A DNA stretch of 64,000 bases from Xanthobacteraceae bacterium (GTDB taxonomy: Bacteria > Pseudomonadota > Alphaproteobacteria > Rhizobiales > Xanthobacteraceae). Positions 6,176 to 20,571 of the stretch are shown here, one piece after another (position 1 is the first letter of the stretch; each line of letters opens with the position of its first letter). The stretch lies in assembly GCA_022844485.1 (NCBI GenBank), contig JALHLQ010000008.1, positions 62,001-126,000 of the forward strand. The letters are read 5' to 3'. The translations under genes were made by a program, and so were the position numbers. A model generated the notes under the pieces. That model was not told the origin of the DNA, did not search any database, and saw only the letters and a program-made list of their open reading frames with translations.

Positions 6176-8614
6176 TCACTTTGCGTCCGGGACGCTCCCG
6201 GGCGGCAGCGAGGCTGCGTGCTCCGCAATCTGCCCCGCCGTCACAAACCAGATCTCGGAGCGCCTTGCAACAATATGGGACAGCGCGCGGCGGAGATGAC
6301 GCAAGCGGTATGGCTGGCCGACGATATAGGGATGCAGCGCCATGCCCATCACCAGAGGGGTCTTCTTCGACTGCTCAAGCATCTCGTCGAAATTCCCGAT
6401 GATGATGTCGGCGAAGTCGGCTGCCGTGTCATTGCGGGCGACGATCGCGGGAATATCGTTGACCTCTTGCGGATAGGGCACGCTCAAGAGCCGCCGCCCC
6501 GAGCGCGTCGCAAGCCACACCGGCTGATCGTCCATGCACCAGTTCAGCGTATAGGCGTAGCCGCATTCGGCCAGCAGGTCGGGGGTCAGCGCACTCTCGG
6601 AAATCCACGGGCTCAGCCAGCCCTTTGGCGGCTTGCCTTCCGCATCAGTGATGACGCGCGTCGCCTCCGCGATCAGCGCGCGCTCGCTCGCTTCGTCCAA
6701 AATGCCTTGCCGCTCCGAATTGGTGCGGCCGTGACCGACGATCTCATCGCCGCGCGCCCGGAACGCCGCCATGACTTCGGGGCAGTAATCGTAAATCGCG
6801 CTGTTTACGAGAACCGAAACAGGCAGCGCGAGTCCATCGAAGAGATCGAGCAAGCGCCACGCGCCTACGCGGTTGCCGTAGTCGCGCCAGGCATAATTCA
6901 ACACGTCCGGCTGCGGTCCTCCGGGCGCAAGCTCCGCACCCAATCCTTCGCCGAAAGCGAAGTGTTCCAAATTCAGCCCGATATAGACAGCAAGGCGCTT
7001 ATCGCCCGGCCAGACGTAATCCGGCCGGTCTCGCATGCCGCGATAGGCGTAGCGACCGTGCTGCCGGACACGGAGCAGCGGGGTCCCGGTTTCGATAGCG
7101 GGTTCGGAACGGTATTGTTCGTCGGGCAACCGGCGATGAACATGATGCGTGCAGCGCGCCTGGGCTTTGCAGAAAGCACCGACGATGTCATGGGCTGCGG
7201 CCGCCGCTTCGGTAGCTTGCGCATTCGCAGCGTCGAGCCGCTCGGCCGCCTCGAGCGCGCGGCTTCGCAGGCGATCCTCATCGAGCGTCAGCATGCGGCC
7301 TTCATGCAACACGAGCTTCCCATCGATCATCACGCTGCGAATGGCCGCGCCGTTCTCCGAAAACATCATCTGCATGATGGGCGCGCGCAACGGCACATAA
7401 TGACAGTATTGGGCATCGAGCATAACGAAATCGGCGCGATAACCGACCGCGACGCGGCCGATGTTCTCGAAACCCAAGACCTGCGCGCTGCCGACCGTCG
7501 CCATCTCAAAGGCCGCTGCCGCCGACAGCCACGCCTCCGGGTCCGGATCGGCGATACGCGAAAGATAGGCCGCAAGCCGCGCAGTCTCGAACATGTTTTG
7601 GCCGTCGGAGGTGTTGCTCGAGTCTGTGCCGATGCCGACGGCGAGTCCGGCCGCGCGCATCTTTCGCGCCGGAGCAACGCCCGATCCAAGCCGCAGATTG
7701 CTCATCGGATTATGCGCGACGCGCACCCCGGCGTGCGCCAGACGGGCAATGTCGTCGTCGTCGATCCAGATGGCGTGAGCGGCGCTGAGGCGATCGGACA
7801 AAAAACCGATGCGACCGAGATGCGCGACCAGACTCTTGCCGTATTTGCGCAGCCCGAGCACCGCCTGCGTTCGCGATTCCGCAAGATGCGTCTGGATGCC
7901 GATATCCATGTCGCGAGCGAGCGTGCTGCAGGCTTTGAGAAAGTCGTCTGAACAGTGCAGCGGGATCGTCGGCGCGATTCCGGGGCGAATTTGGTCACGG
8001 TCGAACGGCCAGGATGCGAACGCCGCCTCGCAGGCGCGGATGCTCGTCTGGTAGGGCGCAAGCGCCAGCTTTTCGACGCGTTCGCGCTGGGCGCCGCTGA
8101 AGGCGTCCATCAGCCCGGGCAACGCTTGATAAAGGGTCTTGTCGGCCATCATCGGCGCGACCACCGCGCGCATGCCGACATCGGCATAGGCCTGGGCCAC
8201 GGCGTGCAGGCCATCCACGGAGGGGGCCGGGTATTCGACGAAAAGGTCGTAGCAGGCGGTGCAGCCTTTGCGGACCATCTCAACGGCCGACAACGCGGCG
8301 CTCAGATATTTGTCTTCGAGCGTCCGGCTGGCATTGATCGCGACCGAGGCATTGAGAAATAGTTCGAGATTGACGCGGTCGCCTACGGCCCCACGGCCGA
8401 GAGCGCCTTGCGCATGCGTATGCGCATTCACGAGCCCGGGCATGATGAGATGGTCGCCGGCGTCGAGTGTTTCGGCATCGGAGGGGCGTTCGCCACCTGG
8501 CGGCTTCAGGGCCACGATCATGCCGTCGCGAATTATGATATCCGCAGCAACCACGTCAGTGGTCAGCGGGTCCACAATCTTCCCATTGGCGAGAACGGTC
8601 GGACGGCCGAGCAT
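6176..8614 (-). CDS. Amidohydrolase / polysaccharide-deacetylase-like fusion protein
   Basis: This 812-residue protein fuses two hydrolases. Residues ~1-460 are an ATZ/TRZ-type metal amidohydrolase (cytosine deaminase/chlorohydrolase family): VNAHTH (H65, H67), QTHLAE (H243), AAHAIW (H280) and GTDSSN (D331) supply the usual metal and catalytic residues. Residues ~515-805 are a polysaccharide deacetylase-fold domain of the PuuE/allantoinase-like branch (YIGLNLEHF, VGHGRTNSE, GWLSPWISES), without the classical TFDDG. The ATG at 8614 has GAGG four bases upstream; a GTG at 8665 is an alternative start. It is the last gene of the importer operon transcribed from ~11.4 kb. Hydrolysis of a C-N bond in an imported heterocycle, amide or guanidine compound is inferred; the substrate is unknown. 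Confidence 0.85.
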   Translation of the reverse strand: MLGRPTVLANGKIVDPLTTDVVAADIIIRDGMIVALKPPGGERPSDAETLDAGDHLIMPGLVNAHTHAQGALGRGAVGDRVNLELFLNASVAINASRTLEDKYLSAALSAVEMVRKGCTACYDLFVEYPAPSVDGLHAVAQAYADVGMRAVVAPMMADKTLYQALPGLMDAFSGAQRERVEKLALAPYQTSIRACEAAFASWPFDRDQIRPGIAPTIPLHCSDDFLKACSTLARDMDIGIQTHLAESRTQAVLGLRKYGKSLVAHLGRIGFLSDRLSAAHAIWIDDDDIARLAHAGVRVAHNPMSNLRLGSGVAPARKMRAAGLAVGIGTDSSNTSDGQNMFETARLAAYLSRIADPDPEAWLSAAAAFEMATVGSAQVLGFENIGRVAVGYRADFVMLDAQYCHYVPLRAPIMQMMFSENGAAIRSVMIDGKLVLHEGRMLTLDEDRLRSRALEAAERLDAANAQATEAAAAAHDIVGAFCKAQARCTHHVHRRLPDEQYRSEPAIETGTPLLRVRQHGRYAYRGMRDRPDYVWPGDKRLAVYIGLNLEHFAFGEGLGAELAPGGPQPDVLNYAWRDYGNRVGAWRLLDLFDGLALPVSVLVNSAIYDYCPEVMAAFRARGDEIVGHGRTNSERQGILDEASERALIAEATRVITDAEGKPPKGWLSPWISESALTPDLLAECGYAYTLNWCMDDQPVWLATRSGRRLLSVPYPQEVNDIPAIVARNDTAADFADIIIGNFDEMLEQSKKTPLVMGMALHPYIVGQPYRLRHLRRALSHIVARRSEIWFVTAGQIAEHAASLPPGSVPDAK

Positions 8615-8680
8615 TGGGCCTCGTCGAAGGTACGAAGGGACGGCCGGTTCAGCCGCCCCTTTCACATCAATGCCCCAACC

Positions 8681-11619: not shown

Positions 11620-13242
11620 TCACGCCAGAGCGCGAAGACCATCCCGCGAAGCTGCCGGCGATGAGTTCGACATGGACATGCGCCACTTCGCCAGCTCCTG
11701 CAATTCCACTATCGGTTGCTCGGACACGACGTGCAGCCGTCCGGCAAAGACCGCTCCCTCGTCGCCGTCGATCGATATCCAATCACCCTCTGCGATCGGG
11801 ACCTCGCCCAGCACGGCGCGACGGAGCGACTCGTCGACAATCAAAGACGGGCAACCCACGACGCAGGGTTTTCCCATCTGCCTAGCCACCAGCGCGGCGT
11901 GAGCCGTGCGGCCGCCGATTGCGGTGACGATGCCGGCCGAGACCGAAAACCCTTCCACATCGGCCGTGCTCGTATCCGGACGCACTAAGATCACCGAGTC
12001 GCCACAGCTTGAAAGCCTCTTTGCCGCCTCCGAATTGAACGCCGCACGCCCGACCGCGACGCCGCCGGAGACCCCCAGCCCGCGCGCGGCGGGCTCCCGC
12101 CGCTCGGTGAAACGGGTGATCGCCAACGAGTCGAGATCGAGGCTTGCCAGCCGGCGCAAAGCCTCTTCCGGCGCAATCATTCCTTCTTGAACGAGATCGA
12201 TGGCGATCCGCAGCGCGGCACGCGGACTGCGCTTGGCCGCGCGCGTTTGCAGGATCCAGAGCGCCCCATCTTCGATCGTGAACTCCACATCCTGGATGTC
12301 GCGATATTCGTGTTCCAGCCGCGCGAGAAAGCTGTCCAACTGCCCCGCGTAAGCCGCCAGCGCGGACGCGCCGAGAGGCTCCGGCGTCCGGCGTCCGGAT
12401 ACGACGTCCTCCCCTTGCGCGTCGATCAGCACCTCGGTCACAGAGTGCCGCGCGCCGCTCGATGGATCACGCGAGAAGGCGACCCCGGAGCCGGAGGTCA
12501 GCCCACGATTGCCGAAGACCATCGCCTGCACGGTCACGGCCGTGCCGGCGAGGTGCTGCAGATTCTCAAGTCGCCGATACGCGCTCGCCCGCTTACCGGT
12601 CCAAGAAACAAAGACGGCATGGGCGGCTGCCGCGAGTTGCTCCGTCGCCTCATCGGGCACGTGCGCGTCCAGATCGGAGAGGAACGCAACATACATGGAC
12701 GCAAGCCGCTCCAGAGCTTCGCTGTCCAGATCTTGATCGCTCGCCGCTTCCTCTTGGACAATGAGACTCTGCAGCCGAGCCGAGAACAGCGCCGGGTCGA
12801 GACCCAGCACGGACTCGGCATAGCCTTCCAGAAAGCGGCGCCGGCAGTCCCACGCGAAACGCGCGCTGCCGCTCTGGCGAATGAGCCCGCGCGTGGCCGC
12901 GGATGTGCATCCGACATTCAGCACCGTGTCCAACATGCCCGGCATCGACCGCGCTGCGCCCGATCGAACGGAAACCAAAAGAGGGTTGCGGCGATCGCCA
13001 AAGCGCCGGCCGGTTTCCGTTTCCAGGAACTTAATGCCTGTCTCCAGCGCATCGTTCATGTCCAGCGTCGCGCGCCGGTCGCCTGCGACGATTGCGGCGC
13101 ACAGCCCAACTGGCAAGACAAAGGCTGGCGGCACCGGCAAACCGAGCTCGGCCATCCGAGCAAGATTCGCCGCCTTGGCGCCGATCTCTTCAACGGTTGC
13201 TGCCGCCGGAAAACCTGCTCGAATGCGCACAATCTCGACCAT
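11620..13242 (-). CDS. Half-length PPDK-like protein (ATP-grasp plus phosphohistidine domain)
   Basis: This 540-residue protein resembles the N-terminal 60% of pyruvate phosphate dikinase. It contains a nucleotide-binding region with FGDRRNPLLVSVRSG (81-95), SMPGMLDTVLNVG, GSGVAFSRDPSSG and 'FTIEDGALWILQTR', then the swivelling phosphohistidine domain with GGRTAHAALVARQMGKPC, in which H448 is the expected phospho-acceptor. The C-terminal PEP/pyruvate-binding barrel of ~350 residues is absent, and the gene ends cleanly rather than by frameshift. It should therefore be able to phosphorylate H448 from ATP but not complete the PPDK reaction alone. It lies 9 bp downstream of the 641-residue PhoU-like gene, so a shared task is likely. 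Confidence 0.85.
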   Translation of the reverse strand: MVEIVRIRAGFPAAATVEEIGAKAANLARMAELGLPVPPAFVLPVGLCAAIVAGDRRATLDMNDALETGIKFLETETGRRFGDRRNPLLVSVRSGAARSMPGMLDTVLNVGCTSAATRGLIRQSGSARFAWDCRRRFLEGYAESVLGLDPALFSARLQSLIVQEEAASDQDLDSEALERLASMYVAFLSDLDAHVPDEATEQLAAAAHAVFVSWTGKRASAYRRLENLQHLAGTAVTVQAMVFGNRGLTSGSGVAFSRDPSSGARHSVTEVLIDAQGEDVVSGRRTPEPLGASALAAYAGQLDSFLARLEHEYRDIQDVEFTIEDGALWILQTRAAKRSPRAALRIAIDLVQEGMIAPEEALRRLASLDLDSLAITRFTERREPAARGLGVSGGVAVGRAAFNSEAAKRLSSCGDSVILVRPDTSTADVEGFSVSAGIVTAIGGRTAHAALVARQMGKPCVVGCPSLIVDESLRRAVLGEVPIAEGDWISIDGDEGAVFAGRLHVVSEQPIVELQELAKWRMSMSNSSPAASRDGLRALA

Positions 13243-13251
13243 CGACTCTCC

Positions 13252-15177
13252 TCAGGCCGCCAAGTCGGCCATCACGTGCTGCTGCAGCAGATGTCCGAGG
13301 CCGGCGAGATGGTCCGTGGCACGTTCCAAGGCCCGGGCGAGTTCAAGAACTGGCAGCGCCGCGCGGGGATCGCAGTCTCCGCGCAGGACGCAAGCCGTCG
13401 CAGCGCGCTCGGCGGCGTCGGCGGCGTGTTCGATATCGGTGAGGTGCGTTGTCGCTGCGAGCGCATGATCGGAATCAGCCCGGTGTCCTTCGGGAACCTC
13501 GGCCGCCGCGTCGACTCCGGATGCTGCCGCTTCGCTGCCGCGCACAGCGTGGCGGCAGAGATCGAGCACCGGCTGCAAGATATCCCCAGGGACGGTTTTC
13601 GGAAGCAGCGACGCGATGAAAGCCGCCTGTTCGAGATCGTCGATCGTATCCTCTGCAGCGTTGGACAACCGGCCGACGACCGGATGGGCATTGAGGCGCG
13701 CGACCTCGTTGCGAGCATCCAGCGCGATGCGATCGGCCTTTTCTTCTATTCGTTTTGCTCGTTCCGTCAGGCTCGCGCCGTCAACAGGCCTGCCAGCGTG
13801 CAGGTCAGCCACGTGCTGCGCGATCTGAGCTGCAATATCGCGCGCAAGACCCAATTGACGCACAATGGTGGCAAGCAATGCATTGTCGCCGCGTCCAAGT
13901 CGCTGCAGGAACTCGGCAGCGACAGCGTCGCGCGCCAGGCGAATAGATCGGCCTTCCAATAGAGATTGCGCGCATATCCGCAGAACGCTCTTCAGGAACG
14001 TAATCGCACCCTCCTTTCCGAGTACGATGTCGAGCCTCTCGCCGAAACCGATCCGAGCGGGCGCCGCATGGCGGATCGCAGAGGCGACCAGTTCCGTCCC
14101 TCCGAGCTCGAGAAATGCGCGGTGGCCAAGCCTCTGGCGCGCCGCCCATTCGAGAATCTGAATCGCATCAGCCTTTCCGGCGAGCGGACGGAGCGCCTTG
14201 CGGGCCTTATTCCAATCGATCAAAAAAACGAGCGCCGCGCCTACTGCCGTGATGAATGCATCGCGCCTGCCCGTGTTGTCCGCATCCAGTCGACCGGTCA
14301 CGAGATAGAAGACGCTCTCTTCCAGCTCGTCGGCCCGGTCACGCTCGAGTCCGCTCCAGTGCGCCGAAAATCCGTCAAACATCGAAACAAAAAACTTGGC
14401 GCGCGGACGATGGACATCGGTGTAGGTGACCGTCGCAGAATTGCCTTCGACGCTCACGACGAGAACATGGGCGTCGGTTGTTCCGATATCATTCTGGATC
14501 ACAAGCCGCTGGTCGACGCGTGTTGCCGTTGTGTCGAGCCCGGGGTGATCGAATTTCAAAGCGCGCGTGCTTTCAATGCCCCGCATGAAAGCCTCGAGCA
14601 CGTGCCGATCCTCGACGGACAGTCCGAATGCGCGCGCCCCGGCGACACTTTCCTCCGCGCAGCCGGCGGCAAGGCGATTGAGCGCCTTGTGGAGATCCAT
14701 AACCAACCTATGGACGCTGTCGCCATCGATTCCGGATATCGCGGTCAGGCGCACGATCTGCGCACGCGTCATCTCACCCGTTTCCGACAAAGCGAGCTGT
14801 GAGGCAAGCGCGGCCATTCTGCCCGACGCCGCCTCCCCCTCTTCGGCACTGCCGTTTTGAACAGCGCGGATCATCGTTCGCAAATCTTGCGCAAGGGCCT
14901 CGGTCAACGGCTTCAACCCTGGCGCCGATATGACATCGCCGATCGTGAACTTCGCGCCCGAAACGAGCACGCGTATATCGACGGGATCCACCCCGGCGGC
15001 CCGACACTCAGACCCAAGGTCGATTGACGTCCCGGCCGGGGAGCCCGCGCGGTGGGCCGCAGCTTGCAGGGCGCTCATGCGCACCTTGGCGCGATCGTTA
15101 GCCGCAAGCCCCTCGGCCACGAGGTTCGGCAGCAGAACGCCGGTCTCTCCCAAGTGCTCGACGATAAGGGATTTCAT
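13252..15177 (-). CDS. Uncharacterised 641-residue protein with PhoU/DUF47-like C-terminal region
   Basis: I do not recognise the whole protein. Residues ~1-430 are soluble and mixed alpha/beta, with no signal peptide; they include 'LKFDHPGLDTTATRVDQRLV', 'VQNGSAEEGE' and a segment rich in charged helices. Residues ~450-640 look like a PhoU/DUF47-type helical bundle: RAKRIEEKADRIALDARNEV, AAEDTIDDLEQAAFIASLLP and LTDIEHAADAAERAA, with regularly spaced acidic and His residues that could bind metal. The gene is translated just before the half-PPDK (9 bp gap). It begins 92 bp after the HlyD-like gene on the same strand, so it may have its own promoter. PhoU-like domains usually handle phosphate or metal signalling; the function here is unknown. 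Confidence 0.7.
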   Translation of the reverse strand: MKSLIVEHLGETGVLLPNLVAEGLAANDRAKVRMSALQAAAHRAGSPAGTSIDLGSECRAAGVDPVDIRVLVSGAKFTIGDVISAPGLKPLTEALAQDLRTMIRAVQNGSAEEGEAASGRMAALASQLALSETGEMTRAQIVRLTAISGIDGDSVHRLVMDLHKALNRLAAGCAEESVAGARAFGLSVEDRHVLEAFMRGIESTRALKFDHPGLDTTATRVDQRLVIQNDIGTTDAHVLVVSVEGNSATVTYTDVHRPRAKFFVSMFDGFSAHWSGLERDRADELEESVFYLVTGRLDADNTGRRDAFITAVGAALVFLIDWNKARKALRPLAGKADAIQILEWAARQRLGHRAFLELGGTELVASAIRHAAPARIGFGERLDIVLGKEGAITFLKSVLRICAQSLLEGRSIRLARDAVAAEFLQRLGRGDNALLATIVRQLGLARDIAAQIAQHVADLHAGRPVDGASLTERAKRIEEKADRIALDARNEVARLNAHPVVGRLSNAAEDTIDDLEQAAFIASLLPKTVPGDILQPVLDLCRHAVRGSEAAASGVDAAAEVPEGHRADSDHALAATTHLTDIEHAADAAERAATACVLRGDCDPRAALPVLELARALERATDHLAGLGHLLQQHVMADLAA

Positions 15178-15269
15178 GGCCCATTGCGTTGTACAGAAAC
15201 GCCGTCCGATGGCATGGTCGTATGACAGTCATGTTACAATGTGGATATCTCGTGCGCTTGGCTCGCGCT

Positions 15270-16589
15270 TCAGTCTTCGCGCCAGGCGCGTGATATCGCT
15301 TCAGTCATCGGCTGCATCAAGTATTCAAGCGCTGTTCTCTCGCGTTTCTTGATGAGGACGTCGGCGGGCATGCCCGGCTGCACGGTCTCTGCGAAAGGAA
15401 GCTGTTCGACCGAAGGAAGCTCGATGCGGGCCAGGTAGAACGGCTGACCGGTGCGGGAATCCGACAGCCTATCCGCCGAGACGTAGGAGACGCGGCTCGT
15501 GAGGGTGCTCGCCATGCGCTGCTTGAGCGCCGTTAGACGGACTTCAGCCTCCATCCCGACACTCACATTGTCGATGTCGGTGGGTTGAACTTGCGCCTCC
15601 ACGATTAATTTCTCGGCCTGCGGCACGATCTCCAGGATCGTCTCGCCTGCCTTGACGACCCCGCCTACGGTATGCGCGGACAGGCCGACGACGATCCCAG
15701 CCGCCGGCGCACGAATGTCGACATGGCCGAGCGTCGTCCGCGCGGCCGTTACCCGTTCTTCCAAGTCCGCAATCTGCGTTTGAACATCGCGGATCTCCTT
15801 CACGACATTCTCACGGAACGCTCTTTCAAGCTGCATGAGTTCCAGCTTGGTCACGCCGATGCTGACTTGTGTGCGGGCGATCTCGGCCACGCGCTCGCCT
15901 CTGGTGCCGTGCAGGCGCGCCGCATCGCGCTCAAGCGCAAGCACGCGCGTTTTCGGCGTGATGTTCTTGCTGAGCAGATCGCGGAGGCCTTCAAGCTCCT
16001 CTTCGACAAATCCAATCTGCTTCTCGAGAGCGACTTGCTGAGCCCGCAGTCCGGCGATCTCCTGGTCGAACTGAGCGACACGCTGGCTGAGAATCGACTG
16101 CTGACCGAGGAGGGAAGACCTGCGCGCCTCGAACACCATTTCCTGCGCACGGATCATTTCCGCCAGTGTATGTTCGCTGCGGCGCTCCTCGAGGTCATCC
16201 GGCCAGCGCATGGCGCTGCCGTCGCGCTCCGCCTTGAGTCGCACTTCGAGAATTCGCGCCGAATCGAGCGCAGATTGCACGATGCCAAGCGTTGCGCGCG
16301 CGCGGGTATCGTCAAGCCGGGCGAGCAGGGTTCCCGGCTCGACTCGCGTTCCGTCTTGAACCAGGATCGCACGAACGACCCCACCTTCCAGATGCTGAAC
16401 GAGCTTTCGGTTGCCCTCGACCTTGATCACACCCGGCGCGATGACCGCACTGGCAAGCGGCGCGAAACCAGCCCACCCGGCGAGTCCGCCGATCGTGAAC
16501 GCGATGACGACGAACCCGCTCAGGATTGCCGGCCGCGTGTCAGTTTTCGCGATGCTCTCGGAAGGCGGGGGACGATGAGCCACTGCCAT
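15270..16589 (-). CDS. Type I secretion membrane fusion protein (HlyD/PrtE family)
   Basis: This 439-residue periplasmic adaptor links an inner-membrane ABC exporter to TolC. A short cytoplasmic N terminus is followed by one membrane helix (~21-42). After it come a lipoyl half-motif (GVIKVEGNRKLVQHLEGG), a long coiled-coil hairpin (~95-290) and the second lipoyl half plus beta domain (VDIRAPAAGIVVGLS, PTDIDNVSVGMEAEVRL). The ATG at 16589 overlaps the TGA of the exporter gene by one base (TGATG), which fixes the start; the open frame continues upstream without family similarity. No TolC-type gene is in the window. Confidence 0.9.
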   Translation of the reverse strand: MAVAHRPPPSESIAKTDTRPAILSGFVVIAFTIGGLAGWAGFAPLASAVIAPGVIKVEGNRKLVQHLEGGVVRAILVQDGTRVEPGTLLARLDDTRARATLGIVQSALDSARILEVRLKAERDGSAMRWPDDLEERRSEHTLAEMIRAQEMVFEARRSSLLGQQSILSQRVAQFDQEIAGLRAQQVALEKQIGFVEEELEGLRDLLSKNITPKTRVLALERDAARLHGTRGERVAEIARTQVSIGVTKLELMQLERAFRENVVKEIRDVQTQIADLEERVTAARTTLGHVDIRAPAAGIVVGLSAHTVGGVVKAGETILEIVPQAEKLIVEAQVQPTDIDNVSVGMEAEVRLTALKQRMASTLTSRVSYVSADRLSDSRTGQPFYLARIELPSVEQLPFAETVQPGMPADVLIKKRERTALEYLMQPMTEAISRAWRED

Positions 16590-18316
16590 CAGCGTGCCCC
16601 CACATTGACAACCCCGACCCCGGCGTCGCGGAGCGGCGACACGGGTCGCGTCACCTTCGCAAGAACCTCGCTGCGGGGCCCGCACATCTCCACCATACCA
16701 TCGCGCAACACGAGAAGGGTGTCGACCGCCATGGTCAGCGTTGGACGATGGGCGATCACAATAACCGCCGCGCCGTGCGCTTTGATGGCGAGAATACCCG
16801 CTTTGAGCGCCTCCTCGCCTTCCGCGTCCAGGCTGGAATTCGGCTCGTCCAGAACGACAATAGCGGGAACGCCGTAGAAGGCGCGTGCGAGCGCGATCCG
16901 CTGGCGCTGCCCGCCAGAGAGCGCCTCACCCTCGGCACCGATACGCGTGTCGTAAGCCTGCGGCAGCCGCAAGATCATGTCGTGGACGCCGGCAAGGCGT
17001 GCGGCAGCAATGATCAAATCAGGACTCGCGGCTTCGTCGAAGCGGGCAATGTTGTCAGCCACCGTGCCATCGAACAACTCGACGTCCTGGGGCAGATAAC
17101 CAATGCGCCGACCCAGATGGGCGGGATCGAAATCGCCAAGAGCGGCACCATCGAAACGTATGTCGCCCGACAGAATCGGCCACACGCCAACGAGGGCGCG
17201 CGCCAAAGTCGATTTGCCGGCTGCGCTGGGTCCAATGACGCCAAGCGCCTCGCCTCGCGAGAGTGCGAACGAGACGCCTTTCAGGATGGGTTTCACGCGC
17301 CCAGGCGGCGCGACGAAGATGCTCGAAACCGCAACCTCGCCGCACGGGTCCGGCAAGCGCATGCGCTCGGGCCTTTCCACATGTTTCGACAAGGCTTGGC
17401 TGAGCCGCGTATAGGCACCGCGCGCCAAGCCGTAGCTGCGCCACGACGCGATGGCGCCCTCGACCGGCGCCAGCGCTCTCGCCATCACGATCGACGCGGC
17501 GATCATCGTTCCGGCGGTGATGGTGTTATCAATCGCAAGCCAGGCGGCGGCCGAGAGCATGCCGACCTGCAGAAACAGGCGCCAGAACTTGGCAAACGCG
17601 GTGAAGTGGGTGGAGACATCGGCTATCCTTGCCTGACCGCGAACCGCCCGGTTGTGATAAGCGCGCCAGCGCCCGCGAATGCCCGAGCGCATCCCCATCG
17701 CTTCAATCGCTTCGGCACTGCGCAATGCGGATTCCGCGAAACCCGTGGCGACAATGGCATGGTTCGTCGTCTCGCGCGCAGTCCGCTTCGTCAGCGTCTC
17801 GTTTGCAAGCGCGGTCAGAAGCAGAACGAGGGCGCCGAAAACTGCAATCCATCCGAGCCAGGGATGCAGCAGGAATATCACGGCAATGAACAATGGCGTC
17901 CATGGCGCATCAAAGAGCGTCGGCAGCGCACTGCCGCTGACGAACGATCGCACGGTATCCAGGTCGCGGATCGATTGAGCGGAGGGCTCGGACCGCTTGT
18001 GAACCCTGTCGACGACGCAAGATGCAAAGACCGGATCGCCCAGCTCGCGATCGAGCATGGCGCCGACACGGCCAAGAATGCGCGAACGGAATAAATCAAG
18101 GAGTCCCAGAGCCGCAAGAAGCGCGACCGCCAACCCCGTCAACAAGACAAGCGTCGGCACACTGCGCGAGGTCAAAACATGATCATAAACGTGCAACATG
18201 TGCAGAGGCACGGTCAGCAGCAGCATGTTCATGAAAAAACTGAACATGCCGGCCGCAATAAGCGCGCCGCGCATGCGGGCCAGCACGCGAACGAGTGGAT
18301 TGGTCCGATCGGCCAT
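16589..18316 (-). CDS. Type I secretion ABC exporter (PrtD/HlyB family)
   Basis: This 575-residue exporter has a six-helix transmembrane domain (~15-300) followed by an ATPase domain. Walker A GPSAAGKST, signature LSGGQRQRIALARA and Walker B VVLDEPNSSLD are intact. No N-terminal C39 peptidase or C39-like domain is present, as expected for PrtD-type exporters of RTX proteins. It is co-transcribed with the HlyD-like adaptor (one-base overlap) and divergent from the RTX protein gene at 18589, the obvious cargo. Confidence 0.92.
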   Translation of the reverse strand: MADRTNPLVRVLARMRGALIAAGMFSFFMNMLLLTVPLHMLHVYDHVLTSRSVPTLVLLTGLAVALLAALGLLDLFRSRILGRVGAMLDRELGDPVFASCVVDRVHKRSEPSAQSIRDLDTVRSFVSGSALPTLFDAPWTPLFIAVIFLLHPWLGWIAVFGALVLLLTALANETLTKRTARETTNHAIVATGFAESALRSAEAIEAMGMRSGIRGRWRAYHNRAVRGQARIADVSTHFTAFAKFWRLFLQVGMLSAAAWLAIDNTITAGTMIAASIVMARALAPVEGAIASWRSYGLARGAYTRLSQALSKHVERPERMRLPDPCGEVAVSSIFVAPPGRVKPILKGVSFALSRGEALGVIGPSAAGKSTLARALVGVWPILSGDIRFDGAALGDFDPAHLGRRIGYLPQDVELFDGTVADNIARFDEAASPDLIIAAARLAGVHDMILRLPQAYDTRIGAEGEALSGGQRQRIALARAFYGVPAIVVLDEPNSSLDAEGEEALKAGILAIKAHGAAVIVIAHRPTLTMAVDTLLVLRDGMVEMCGPRSEVLAKVTRPVSPLRDAGVGVVNVGAR

Positions 18317-18588
18317 CGTTGATGCGTTGATGCGGCTCGCTGGGCCGGAGCCAAAGCTGTCCCGGAGCGGGAGCGCTGTGGTTCCGATCGTTCTTCGAGG
18401 GCCGCGGGTAGGAGAAGATTACGACAGCTGAATGACATCCCGCCATTCGGTTCGCCGACAGACAAGGCTCCTGTGAACAAGTGAGAAAAGCGGACCGGGC
18501 GTCGCGGCATGTTCATTCGGAGGTCACCGTTCTGTTACCGATCGAAGCTAGGGAGCGCCCGTGATGAACAAAACAGGGAGCTCCTCTC
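18317..18588. promoter_or_regulatory. Divergent intergenic region between exporter and RTX gene
   Basis: This 272 bp region holds no convincing gene. It must contain the start signals for both the minus-strand secretion genes and the plus-strand RTX gene. AGGGAG lies about 12 bases before the ATG at 18589. I cannot assign -35/-10 elements or an operator with confidence. Confidence 0.5.
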
Positions 18589-20571
18589 ATGTCGAAGGCA
18601 TTGATGGCGGGTGGACCATTCGGCTTTGGCCGATTCAAGTTTGGCACCGATCGAGATGACATGCTGCTTGGATCGAACGCGAATGAGTGGTTTTTCGGTT
18701 TCAACGGTCACGACACGATTTTCGCGCGCGGCGGCAACGATCATGTCTTCGGCGGCCGCGGCCATGATCGGATCGACGCCGGAGCCGGCAACGACTGGGT
18801 GTTCGGCGGCGACGACAATGATGGCATCGTGGGCGGCGAGGGCAACGATCACCTGTATGGTGACGAGGGCAATGATCTGCTGCTTGGCGGCGCGGGGCGC
18901 GATGTTCTGAACGGCGGCGAGGGCAGCGACAAGTACATGATCCGCGTCGGCACGGACGTCGACACGATCGAAGGTTTCGAAGCCGACGACAAGATCGACC
19001 TGCGCGCGTTCAACTTCGCGTCGGCGCAGGCGGTTATCGACGCGTTTCAGCAGGTTGGCCAACACGCCATTCTCAACCTGGGTGGTGGGGATCAGATCAT
19101 CCTGCGCCACACGCGGGTGGACGATTTGCATCTCAATCAGTTCATCGTGTCGGATGCGGAAACCGGCCCCAGCAGTTCGGCTTCGCCCTACGTCATTGGC
19201 GTCGATCCGAACGTCTCGACCGTATCGCTGCTCACGGTCGGCGACCAGGTTGGCTTCAAGTCTGACGGCGTGACACCCTGGAAGATGGTCGGCATTCCGG
19301 ACGGGCTCGGCGCGTTCGACAATGGCGATGGAACGTTCACGGTTCTGATGAACCACGAGCTTCGCGGCGATGCCGGCGTTGTGCGCGAGCACGGCGCGAA
19401 AGGCGCGTTCGTGTCCAAGCTCATCATCGACAAAACGACACTGCAGGTCCTGGAAGGATCAGACCTGATCAAAGACGTCTATCTGTACAATTCCGCGACA
19501 AATTCCTTCTACGATCCGCTGGTCGGCGGCGGCCCGCTGACCTCGCCCGCGATCGGCCGGCTCTGCTCGGCTGATCTGCCAGAACTCTCCGCCTTCTACA
19601 ATGCGGCGAGCGGCAAGGGGACGATGGAGCGCATCTTCATGAACGGCGAGGAGGTCGGAACCGAAGGCCGCGCCTTTGCCCACATCGTGACCGGCGCGGA
19701 AGCCGGGGATTCCTATGAGCTCGCCTGGCTCGGCAAGTTCTCGTGGGAGAATTCGGTCGCCAATCCTTACACCGGTGACAAGACCGTGGTCGCCGGGCTC
19801 GACGACGTCACCGATGGACAGGTCTACTTCTACTTCGGCGACAAGACGAATACCGGTCTCGCGATCGAGAAAGCCGGCCTGACCAATGGAGAGCTGTTCG
19901 GCTTGAAGATTCACGAAATGGCGACGGAGAGCAGCGCGCCAAACCCGCTCGGCCTAGACAACCGGTCGGTCTTCAGCCTGGTTAATCTCGGGGACGTGAG
20001 CGGCCAAACGGGCGCCTCTCTGGAGACAGAGAGCAATAGTCTCGGCGTGACGCGCCTTCTCCGCCCCGAGGACGGCGCCTGGGATACCGTGTCGGACGAC
20101 AGGTTCTACTTCGTCACGACGGCGAGTTTTACCGGACCCAGCCGGCTATGGGCGGTGGATTTCGAGGACCCCTCGGACCCGACCAAAGGCGGTACCGTCT
20201 CGCTGCTGCTCGACGGCACAGAAGGACAGAAGATGATGGACAACATCACCGTCAACAAGGAAGGCAAGGTCATCATCCAGGAAGACCCAGGTAATCAAGA
20301 TCATCTTGCCAAGATCTGGGAATATGATCCGCTGACGGACCAGCTGAAGCTGCTCGCGCAGCACGACCCGGACCGTTTCGATCCGACCAATGTCGGCGGC
20401 GAGCCCTTCCTGACACGCGACGAGGAATCGTCGGGCATCATCGATGTCACCGACATTCTGGGTTCAGCCGGACAGAAGGCGTATCTGCTCGATGTCCAGG
20501 CCCATTACTCGATTCCCGGCGAACTGGTCGAAGGCGGACAGCTCCTCGTCATGTATCAGGATATGGTCTGA
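18589..20571 (+). CDS. Secreted RTX protein with PhoX/DUF839-like domain
   Basis: This is a 660-residue protein without a Sec signal. Residues ~20-115 carry about eight calcium-binding RTX nonapeptides (GGNDHVFGG, AGNDWVFGG, EGNDHLYGD, EGNDLLLGG, AGRDVLNGG). Residues ~120-185 look like the serralysin-type region that follows RTX repeats (DTIEGFEADDKIDLRAF). Residues ~190-660 resemble the DUF839/PhoX or phytase-like beta-propeller group (FDNGDGTFTVLMNHELRG, MDNITVNKEGKVIIQEDPGN, 'DEESSGIIDVTDILG'). A calcium-dependent phosphatase or esterase role is inferred. The RTX block is N-terminal, the reverse of most type I substrates. The neighbouring divergent PrtD/HlyD genes are the likely export route. 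Confidence 0.85.
   Translation: MSKALMAGGPFGFGRFKFGTDRDDMLLGSNANEWFFGFNGHDTIFARGGNDHVFGGRGHDRIDAGAGNDWVFGGDDNDGIVGGEGNDHLYGDEGNDLLLGGAGRDVLNGGEGSDKYMIRVGTDVDTIEGFEADDKIDLRAFNFASAQAVIDAFQQVGQHAILNLGGGDQIILRHTRVDDLHLNQFIVSDAETGPSSSASPYVIGVDPNVSTVSLLTVGDQVGFKSDGVTPWKMVGIPDGLGAFDNGDGTFTVLMNHELRGDAGVVREHGAKGAFVSKLIIDKTTLQVLEGSDLIKDVYLYNSATNSFYDPLVGGGPLTSPAIGRLCSADLPELSAFYNAASGKGTMERIFMNGEEVGTEGRAFAHIVTGAEAGDSYELAWLGKFSWENSVANPYTGDKTVVAGLDDVTDGQVYFYFGDKTNTGLAIEKAGLTNGELFGLKIHEMATESSAPNPLGLDNRSVFSLVNLGDVSGQTGASLETESNSLGVTRLLRPEDGAWDTVSDDRFYFVTTASFTGPSRLWAVDFEDPSDPTKGGTVSLLLDGTEGQKMMDNITVNKEGKVIIQEDPGNQDHLAKIWEYDPLTDQLKLLAQHDPDRFDPTNVGGEPFLTRDEESSGIIDVTDILGSAGQKAYLLDVQAHYSIPGELVEGGQLLVMYQDMV

Follow-up and report, generated by a model that had tools for sequence, protein, structure and literature searches.

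A half-length pyruvate phosphate dikinase and its constant partner, a PhoU_div-tailed protein: a candidate two-component dikinase

Two kinds of described system come closest to the gene pair considered here. The first is VadK (Rv1127c of Mycobacterium tuberculosis), a pyruvate phosphate dikinase (PPDK) without the phosphoenolpyruvate (PEP)/pyruvate barrel that autophosphorylates on His422 with ATP and Mg2+, pulls down enzymes of the methylcitrate cycle and, for the sake of solubility, was produced together with Rv1126c, its partner in the operon (PMC13400623). The second comprises HpeHI, CreHI and PpsAB, phenol-phosphorylating dikinases that are each divided over two proteins (PMC12167813). 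The pair that we describe lies on the reverse strand of a 64,000-nucleotide stretch of DNA from a Xanthobacteraceae bacterium (GenBank assembly GCA_022844485.1, contig JALHLQ010000008.1, positions 62,001 to 126,000), referred to below as the window, and all coordinates are counted from its first letter. As a first-pass annotation of the sequence had noted, and as the open reading frame list of the window confirms, one gene encodes 540 residues (11620-13242), the half-length PPDK or half-PPDK, and begins 9 bp downstream of a second that encodes 641 residues (13252-15177), a protein that we call P641; the Shine-Dalgarno sequence GAGGAGAG of the half-PPDK gene (13246-13253) overlaps the TGA stop codon of P641. 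A barrel-less PPDK is in itself already known from VadK (PMC13400623), and the lineage found in the window is a separate line of truncated PPDK. Literature searches returned no publication on the pair and none containing both DUF47 and PPDK.

The half-PPDK consists of an ATP-grasp (nucleotide-binding) region and a phosphohistidine swivel domain. Its Pfam matches are restricted to PPDK_N (E = 7.9e-42) and PEP-utilizers (PF00391, E = 1.1e-21), the latter covering residues 416-496 (11755-11997), while the barrel family PEP-utilizers_C (PF02896) is absent from the Pfam search, which gives no C-terminal match. Residues 19-505 align with positions ∼17-512 of Clostridium PPDK structures that are 873-874 residues long, so that the enzyme is, as first annotated, a PPDK that stops behind the phosphohistidine domain. 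The eight catalytic positions that were checked (K23, R93, D318, E320, Q332, R334, T446 and H448) are all intact, and these are identical across the 18 P641-linked half-PPDKs aligned and the full-length PPDKs, with a single exception at position 446 of the Methylibium enzyme. By the alignment, the counterparts in the Clostridium enzyme are its catalytic residues K22, R92, D321, E323, Q335, R337 and H455. The phosphohistidine, H448 (codon 11899-11901), is invariant and sits in the GGRTAHAALVARQM motif. Judged by these residues, the half-PPDK is still expected to charge a histidine with phosphate from ATP; it scores 526.5 bits with TIGR01828, the model for canonical PPDK, against a cut-off of 843.45.

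In order to follow the pair through related bacteria we searched a sample of 297 genomes of the order with P641 and, separately, with the half-PPDK, and assembled relatives' loci from these genomes, from a scan of a collection in which each species is represented by a single genome (the best 80 of 372 confirmed stretches encoding relatives, which include Bradyrhizobium and other cultivable soil bacteria) and from plasmids. P641 is present in 12 of the 297 genomes and, among the matches listed, half-type PPDKs occur only in these same 12, in a survey where weak, VadK-like cases could be missed; a frameshifted copy in genome G210 scores lower in this search. Of 94 loci, 91 have the half-PPDK gene beside P641 and in the same orientation; the remaining three (L031, L068 and L093) are cut off by a contig end. 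The half-PPDK gene likewise follows P641 in all 10 further loci taken from the class. Adjacency thus holds in 101 of 101 testable loci, a total in which a few loci represent the same species from two collections and the independent cases are somewhat fewer. Gaps between the two genes are mostly 3-21 bp, with several of -4 where stop and start codons overlap; larger negative values reflect reading frames extended upstream. In one locus (L025:8276-9932) the half-PPDK is spread over two overlapping frames, through a frameshift or a sequencing error, and P641 is intact.

Pairwise divergences of P641 and the half-PPDK correlate with r = 0.98, as expected for genes that are inherited together. Outside the pair the gene order varies between genera, neighbors are often on the opposite strand and Pfam tallies of 122 neighbor genes reveal no functional theme. 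Since conservation between genera does not extend to the flanking genes, P641 and the half-PPDK are the unit. The first-pass annotation had proposed a two-component phosphoryl-transfer system and had named two observations that would speak against it: a pair rarely conserved together, and a barrel-only gene elsewhere in the genome that completes a normal split PPDK. The first is contradicted by a pair that occupies the same genomes of the order and is not split in any of the testable loci. As to the second, PF02896 occurs twice in the genome of the window (98.5% complete, 44 contigs), in a complete PPDK of 918 residues (PPDK_N, PEP-utilizers and PEP-utilizers_C) and in a PtsP-type enzyme I (GAF, PEP-utilisers_N, PEP-utilizers and PEP-utilizers_C), and the search with this family found no barrel-only gene, which rules out a split PPDK with its barrel on a separate gene. 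The full-length PPDK is encoded in the same genome, and in each of the 12 pair-bearing genomes of the order the search with the half-PPDK gave two or more matches, of which the second is as a rule a full-length PPDK. This might be taken to mean that the half-PPDK acts as a donor to, or a complement of, the full-length enzyme's barrel, with P641 incidental. We consider this highly improbable, as the full-length PPDK is complete in itself and requires no assistance and the half-PPDK is tied in every locus to P641 and not to a barrel gene.

Because the pair is never split and the genome contains no barrel-only gene, P641 as the phosphoryl partner is the leading reading, and both the autophosphorylation of VadK and the two-protein split of HpeHI, CreHI and PpsAB provide precedents for it. 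P641 and the half-PPDK would then make up a two-component dikinase in which P641 stands in place of the pyruvate barrel as the acceptor side, a proposal to which we assign a probability of roughly 50%. By the PPDK route, the half-PPDK would charge His448 with a phosphoryl group taken from ATP (ATP + Pi → AMP + PPi + His-P), the swiveling His domain would dock on the N-terminal region of P641 in a putative complex, and the phosphoryl group would be handed to an acceptor at P641, either a bound small molecule or a histidine of P641 itself, with H156 and H163 as candidates; the PhoU_div tail of P641 may gate the reaction through metal or phosphate binding. Several points weigh against such a scheme. 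Adjacency and co-inheritance indicate a shared role, not phosphoryl transfer; the known two-component dikinases are split elsewhere, with ATP-grasp alone on one side and the His and substrate domains on the other; and the N-terminal region of P641, as modeled, has no recognized catalytic fold. What stands of the system first proposed is an obligate gene unit, with neither contrary observation made, while transfer to P641 and the nature of the acceptor are what we would infer from it.

The last ∼190 residues of P641, earlier described as PhoU/DUF47-like, form a PhoU_div/DUF47 domain at both the family and the fold level. Taken by itself the P641 of the window gives only PhoU at E = 0.6, below threshold, and no significant family match. 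Its relatives are more informative: PF01865 (PhoU_div) is matched by 6 of 11 diverse ones (best E = 8.5e-7) and TIGR00153 by 18 of 73 family members, the family profile run over genomes retrieved other proteins that belong to PF01865, and the same profile compared with the PDB finds the PhoU-like protein 3L39 (E = 2.6e-8, profile positions 455-637). An AlphaFold2 model of P641 built from 71 sequences has a pLDDT of 89.7, and Foldseek again matches its C-terminal domain to 3L39 (E = 2.6e-4, TM 0.81 by target length), followed by PhoU structures. The predicted helical region spans residues 412-641 (13252-13944) and contains three ExxxD motifs that are invariant in the family, E478/D482, E583/D587 and E618/D622. 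The ExxxD pattern is typical of PhoU proteins, where these residues are ligands of metal clusters, and its conservation suggests phosphate or metal sensing by P641. A different PhoU_div fusion, with a NUDIX domain preceding PhoU_div, was also found with the P641 profile (L133:925-2058 and L135:922-2076).

A sensing domain of this kind would also suit a P641 that acts on the input side, regulating or feeding the half-PPDK, perhaps by adding or taking off the phosphoryl group according to phosphate or metal, with the half-PPDK either gated or running backwards (AMP + PPi → ATP); the PPDK reaction can go in both directions and consumes Pi (PMC13400623). Family, sequence and fold searches recognize neither a phosphatase nor a kinase domain in P641, and we regard an input role as improbable.

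The acceptor role that we favor for P641 would fall to its first ∼410 residues (1-411, 13945-15177), a region without family assignment that has no sequence match in Pfam, NCBIfam or the PDB. Predicted alone it yields a confident model (pLDDT 90, pTM 0.80), with which a fold search of the PDB returned nothing at E ≤ 0.001 (the best match has E = 0.055, and TM does not exceed about 0.3); no fold match emerged from a viral structure library, nor between P641 and rifampin phosphotransferase. Across the 71 sequences, which are 37-61% identical to that of the window, 46 columns of this region are invariant, and the pattern of invariant polar residues (H156, H163, N167, H211, N229, D230, H237, D254, R259, D321, N323, R326 and K327) suggests an active or binding site. 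A phage or defense system was considered and rejected: P641 has no PADLOC or PHROGs match and the half-PPDK matches only a generic phage 'kinase' family.

The relation to VadK was evaluated with VadK-type loci retrieved from actinobacterial and other plasmids, many of which have an Rv1126c-like gene nearby. In a maximum-likelihood tree of 35 proteins the 18 P641-linked half-PPDKs cluster together with 100/100 support and separately from both the VadK types and the full-length enzymes. With NF004531, for which the cut-off is 456 bits, the half-PPDK of the window scores 450.1 and three relatives score 404.7, 450.0 and 440.8, all below, as compared with 867.6 and 785.4 for VadK-type proteins, and a profile search of the genome of the window found no Rv1126c-like protein. 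Score, tree and partner, all of them sequence-based tests, place the P641-linked half-PPDK outside the VadK family, which it presumably resembles in chemistry. Among the loci examined, that of a Mycobacterium avium plasmid (L113) and five more (L143, L144, L145, L150 and L147) have VadK-type half-PPDKs and Rv1126c-like proteins in the vicinity of separate PEP-utilizing (phosphohistidine) enzymes as well as of enzymes of acyl-CoA or aromatic metabolism; in L144 the Rv1126c-like domain forms a fusion with an AMP-binding protein, and in L147 with a PEP-utilizing enzyme.

A short motif is common to the partner proteins of the two lineages. Rv1126c-like proteins terminate in DSYHTVWFELHEDL and P641 carries DSxHRLVMDLHKAL at residues 153-166, of which DSVHRLVMDLH (residues 153-163, 14689-14721, with H156 and H163 invariant) resembles DSYHTVWFELH of the VadK partner family, a statistically weak lead. 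When the P641 and Rv1126c profiles are compared the top alignment is this motif, with P = 0.016 for full-length P641 and 0.0035 for residues 20-176, and its score of 25.9 was not reached in any of 150 shuffles of the columns of the full-length P641 profile, the best of which gave 23.2. HHalign assigns the alignment, 20-22 columns long, a probability of only 3-9%, too low to establish homology of P641 and Rv1126c through common descent. When the Rv1126c family was extended through genomes of Pseudomonadota, the only matches obtained were short ones to the N-terminal part of that family. The DSxHx6H pattern is a hint of a candidate docking or acceptor site.

The same motif, shared with Rv1126c-like proteins of which some are annotated as MarR-like regulators, can be read in another way, with the half-PPDK a regulatory histidine kinase in the style of VadK that autophosphorylates and binds or modifies metabolic enzymes elsewhere, and P641 its stabilizer, its sensor or a transcription regulator. 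The pull-down of methylcitrate-cycle enzymes by VadK and its co-expression with Rv1126c for solubility (PMC13400623) are in keeping with this. The 46 invariant columns in residues 1-411 of P641 are above expectation for a simple chaperone or regulator, however, no metabolic pathway is conserved in the neighborhood, and the P641-type half-PPDKs form their clade apart from VadK and below the NF004531 cut-off, so that we view a regulatory kinase as a serious possibility with the odds against it.

Upstream of P641 most relatives have an element of the form [AG]TGACA-n4/5-ATGAATGATCT[GA]GC[GT]CAAT, mostly 49-73 bp before the start codon. With a 19-bp weight matrix applied in leave-one-out fashion it exceeds the shuffled 99% level in 36 of 49 less redundant loci; it is seen, for example, in L034, L054, L066 and some 30 other loci and is missing in the window's copy and in L099, L049 and L082. 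Its right part is near the FixK2/FNR box, with A replacing the first T of the FixK2 consensus TTG[AC]-N6-[TG]CAA (PMC6710368). The pattern WTG[AC]N6[TG]CAA is present upstream of 29 of 49 P641 genes as opposed to 17 of 473 genes in the control set, an odds ratio of 39 (p = 7e-23, for loci that are not fully independent and with W admitted after the motif was seen), and the strict TTG form upstream of only 5 of the 49. For relatives with the element, it is reasonable to suppose control by a CRP/FNR regulator at low oxygen. In the window there are three Pho-box-like matches, a total at chance level, and control of the window's copy by a Pho box was dropped for this reason; one of them (15222-15239, reverse strand, 3 mismatches) is upstream of P641 and another (18421-18438, reverse strand, 2 mismatches) lies between divergent type I secretion genes and an RTX/PhoX-like gene. 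While the tie to phosphate or metal status put forward in the first-pass annotation would draw on the PhoU-type ExxxD motifs and a Pho-box-like match at chance level, the upstream sequence of most relatives resembles a FixK/FNR (low-oxygen) box.

In the window a type I secretion adaptor gene precedes the pair at a distance of 92 bp. This adaptor and a PrtD-like ABC transporter are encoded in the region 15270-20571, divergently from a 660-residue RTX-repeat protein with a weak match to PhoX (alkaline phosphatase), and the cluster possibly encodes a secreted phosphatase with its own exporter. Downstream of the pair and on the same strand is a gene for an 829-residue fusion of amidohydrolase and polysaccharide-deacetylase/PuuE-like domains (6176-8665, reverse strand), beside an NMT1/SsuA-type ABC transporter.

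VadK established that loss of the pyruvate barrel can turn a PPDK into a histidine kinase. The P641-linked half-PPDKs are a second such lineage, with a fixed and dedicated partner of a new type that carries a large conserved region without known structural relative, and with the partner fixed, two proteins and a single histidine mutant are enough to put the question of the phosphoryl acceptor directly to the test. Tentatively, and in the knowledge that so composite a picture is more easily wrong than right, the N-terminal ∼410 residues of P641 might be a new acceptor module for PPDK-derived phosphohistidine kinases, phosphorylating a metabolite or forming a new His-based relay, with metal or phosphate gating by PhoU_div and often with low-oxygen control. 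The barrel would then have been exchanged at least twice, for P641 here and for an Rv1126c-like protein in VadK, with DSxHx6H as a common docking or acceptor motif.

Compared with known systems, the pair combines familiar parts in a different arrangement. The half-PPDK has in common with canonical PPDK (TIGR01828) the N-terminal ∼510 residues and the active-site residues, but is without the PEP/pyruvate barrel, and the genome encodes a separate complete PPDK. The C-terminal domain of P641 shares its fold and ExxxD motifs with PhoU_div/DUF47 proteins (PF01865; PDB 3L39, 2IIU/2OLT); unlike in these, it is fused behind a ∼410-residue region that has no match in the libraries searched, and the families most frequent in its flanking genes include no phosphate transporter. 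With HpeHI, CreHI and PpsAB the pair would share a dikinase chemistry spread over two proteins, as proposed here, yet in those systems one protein carries nothing but ATP-grasp and the other the His and substrate domains, whereas here ATP-grasp and His are together and the acceptor side would be the separate one. The likeness to VadK (NF004531/PRK05878) extends to ATP-grasp and phosphohistidine domains without a barrel, conserved catalytic residues, an operonic second protein and, weakly, the DSxHx6H-like motif of both partners. In VadK, however, the partner is an Rv1126c-like protein of ∼200 residues, while the P641-linked half-PPDKs, a separate 100/100 clade under the NF004531 cut-off, are paired with an upstream protein that ends in a PhoU_div tail.

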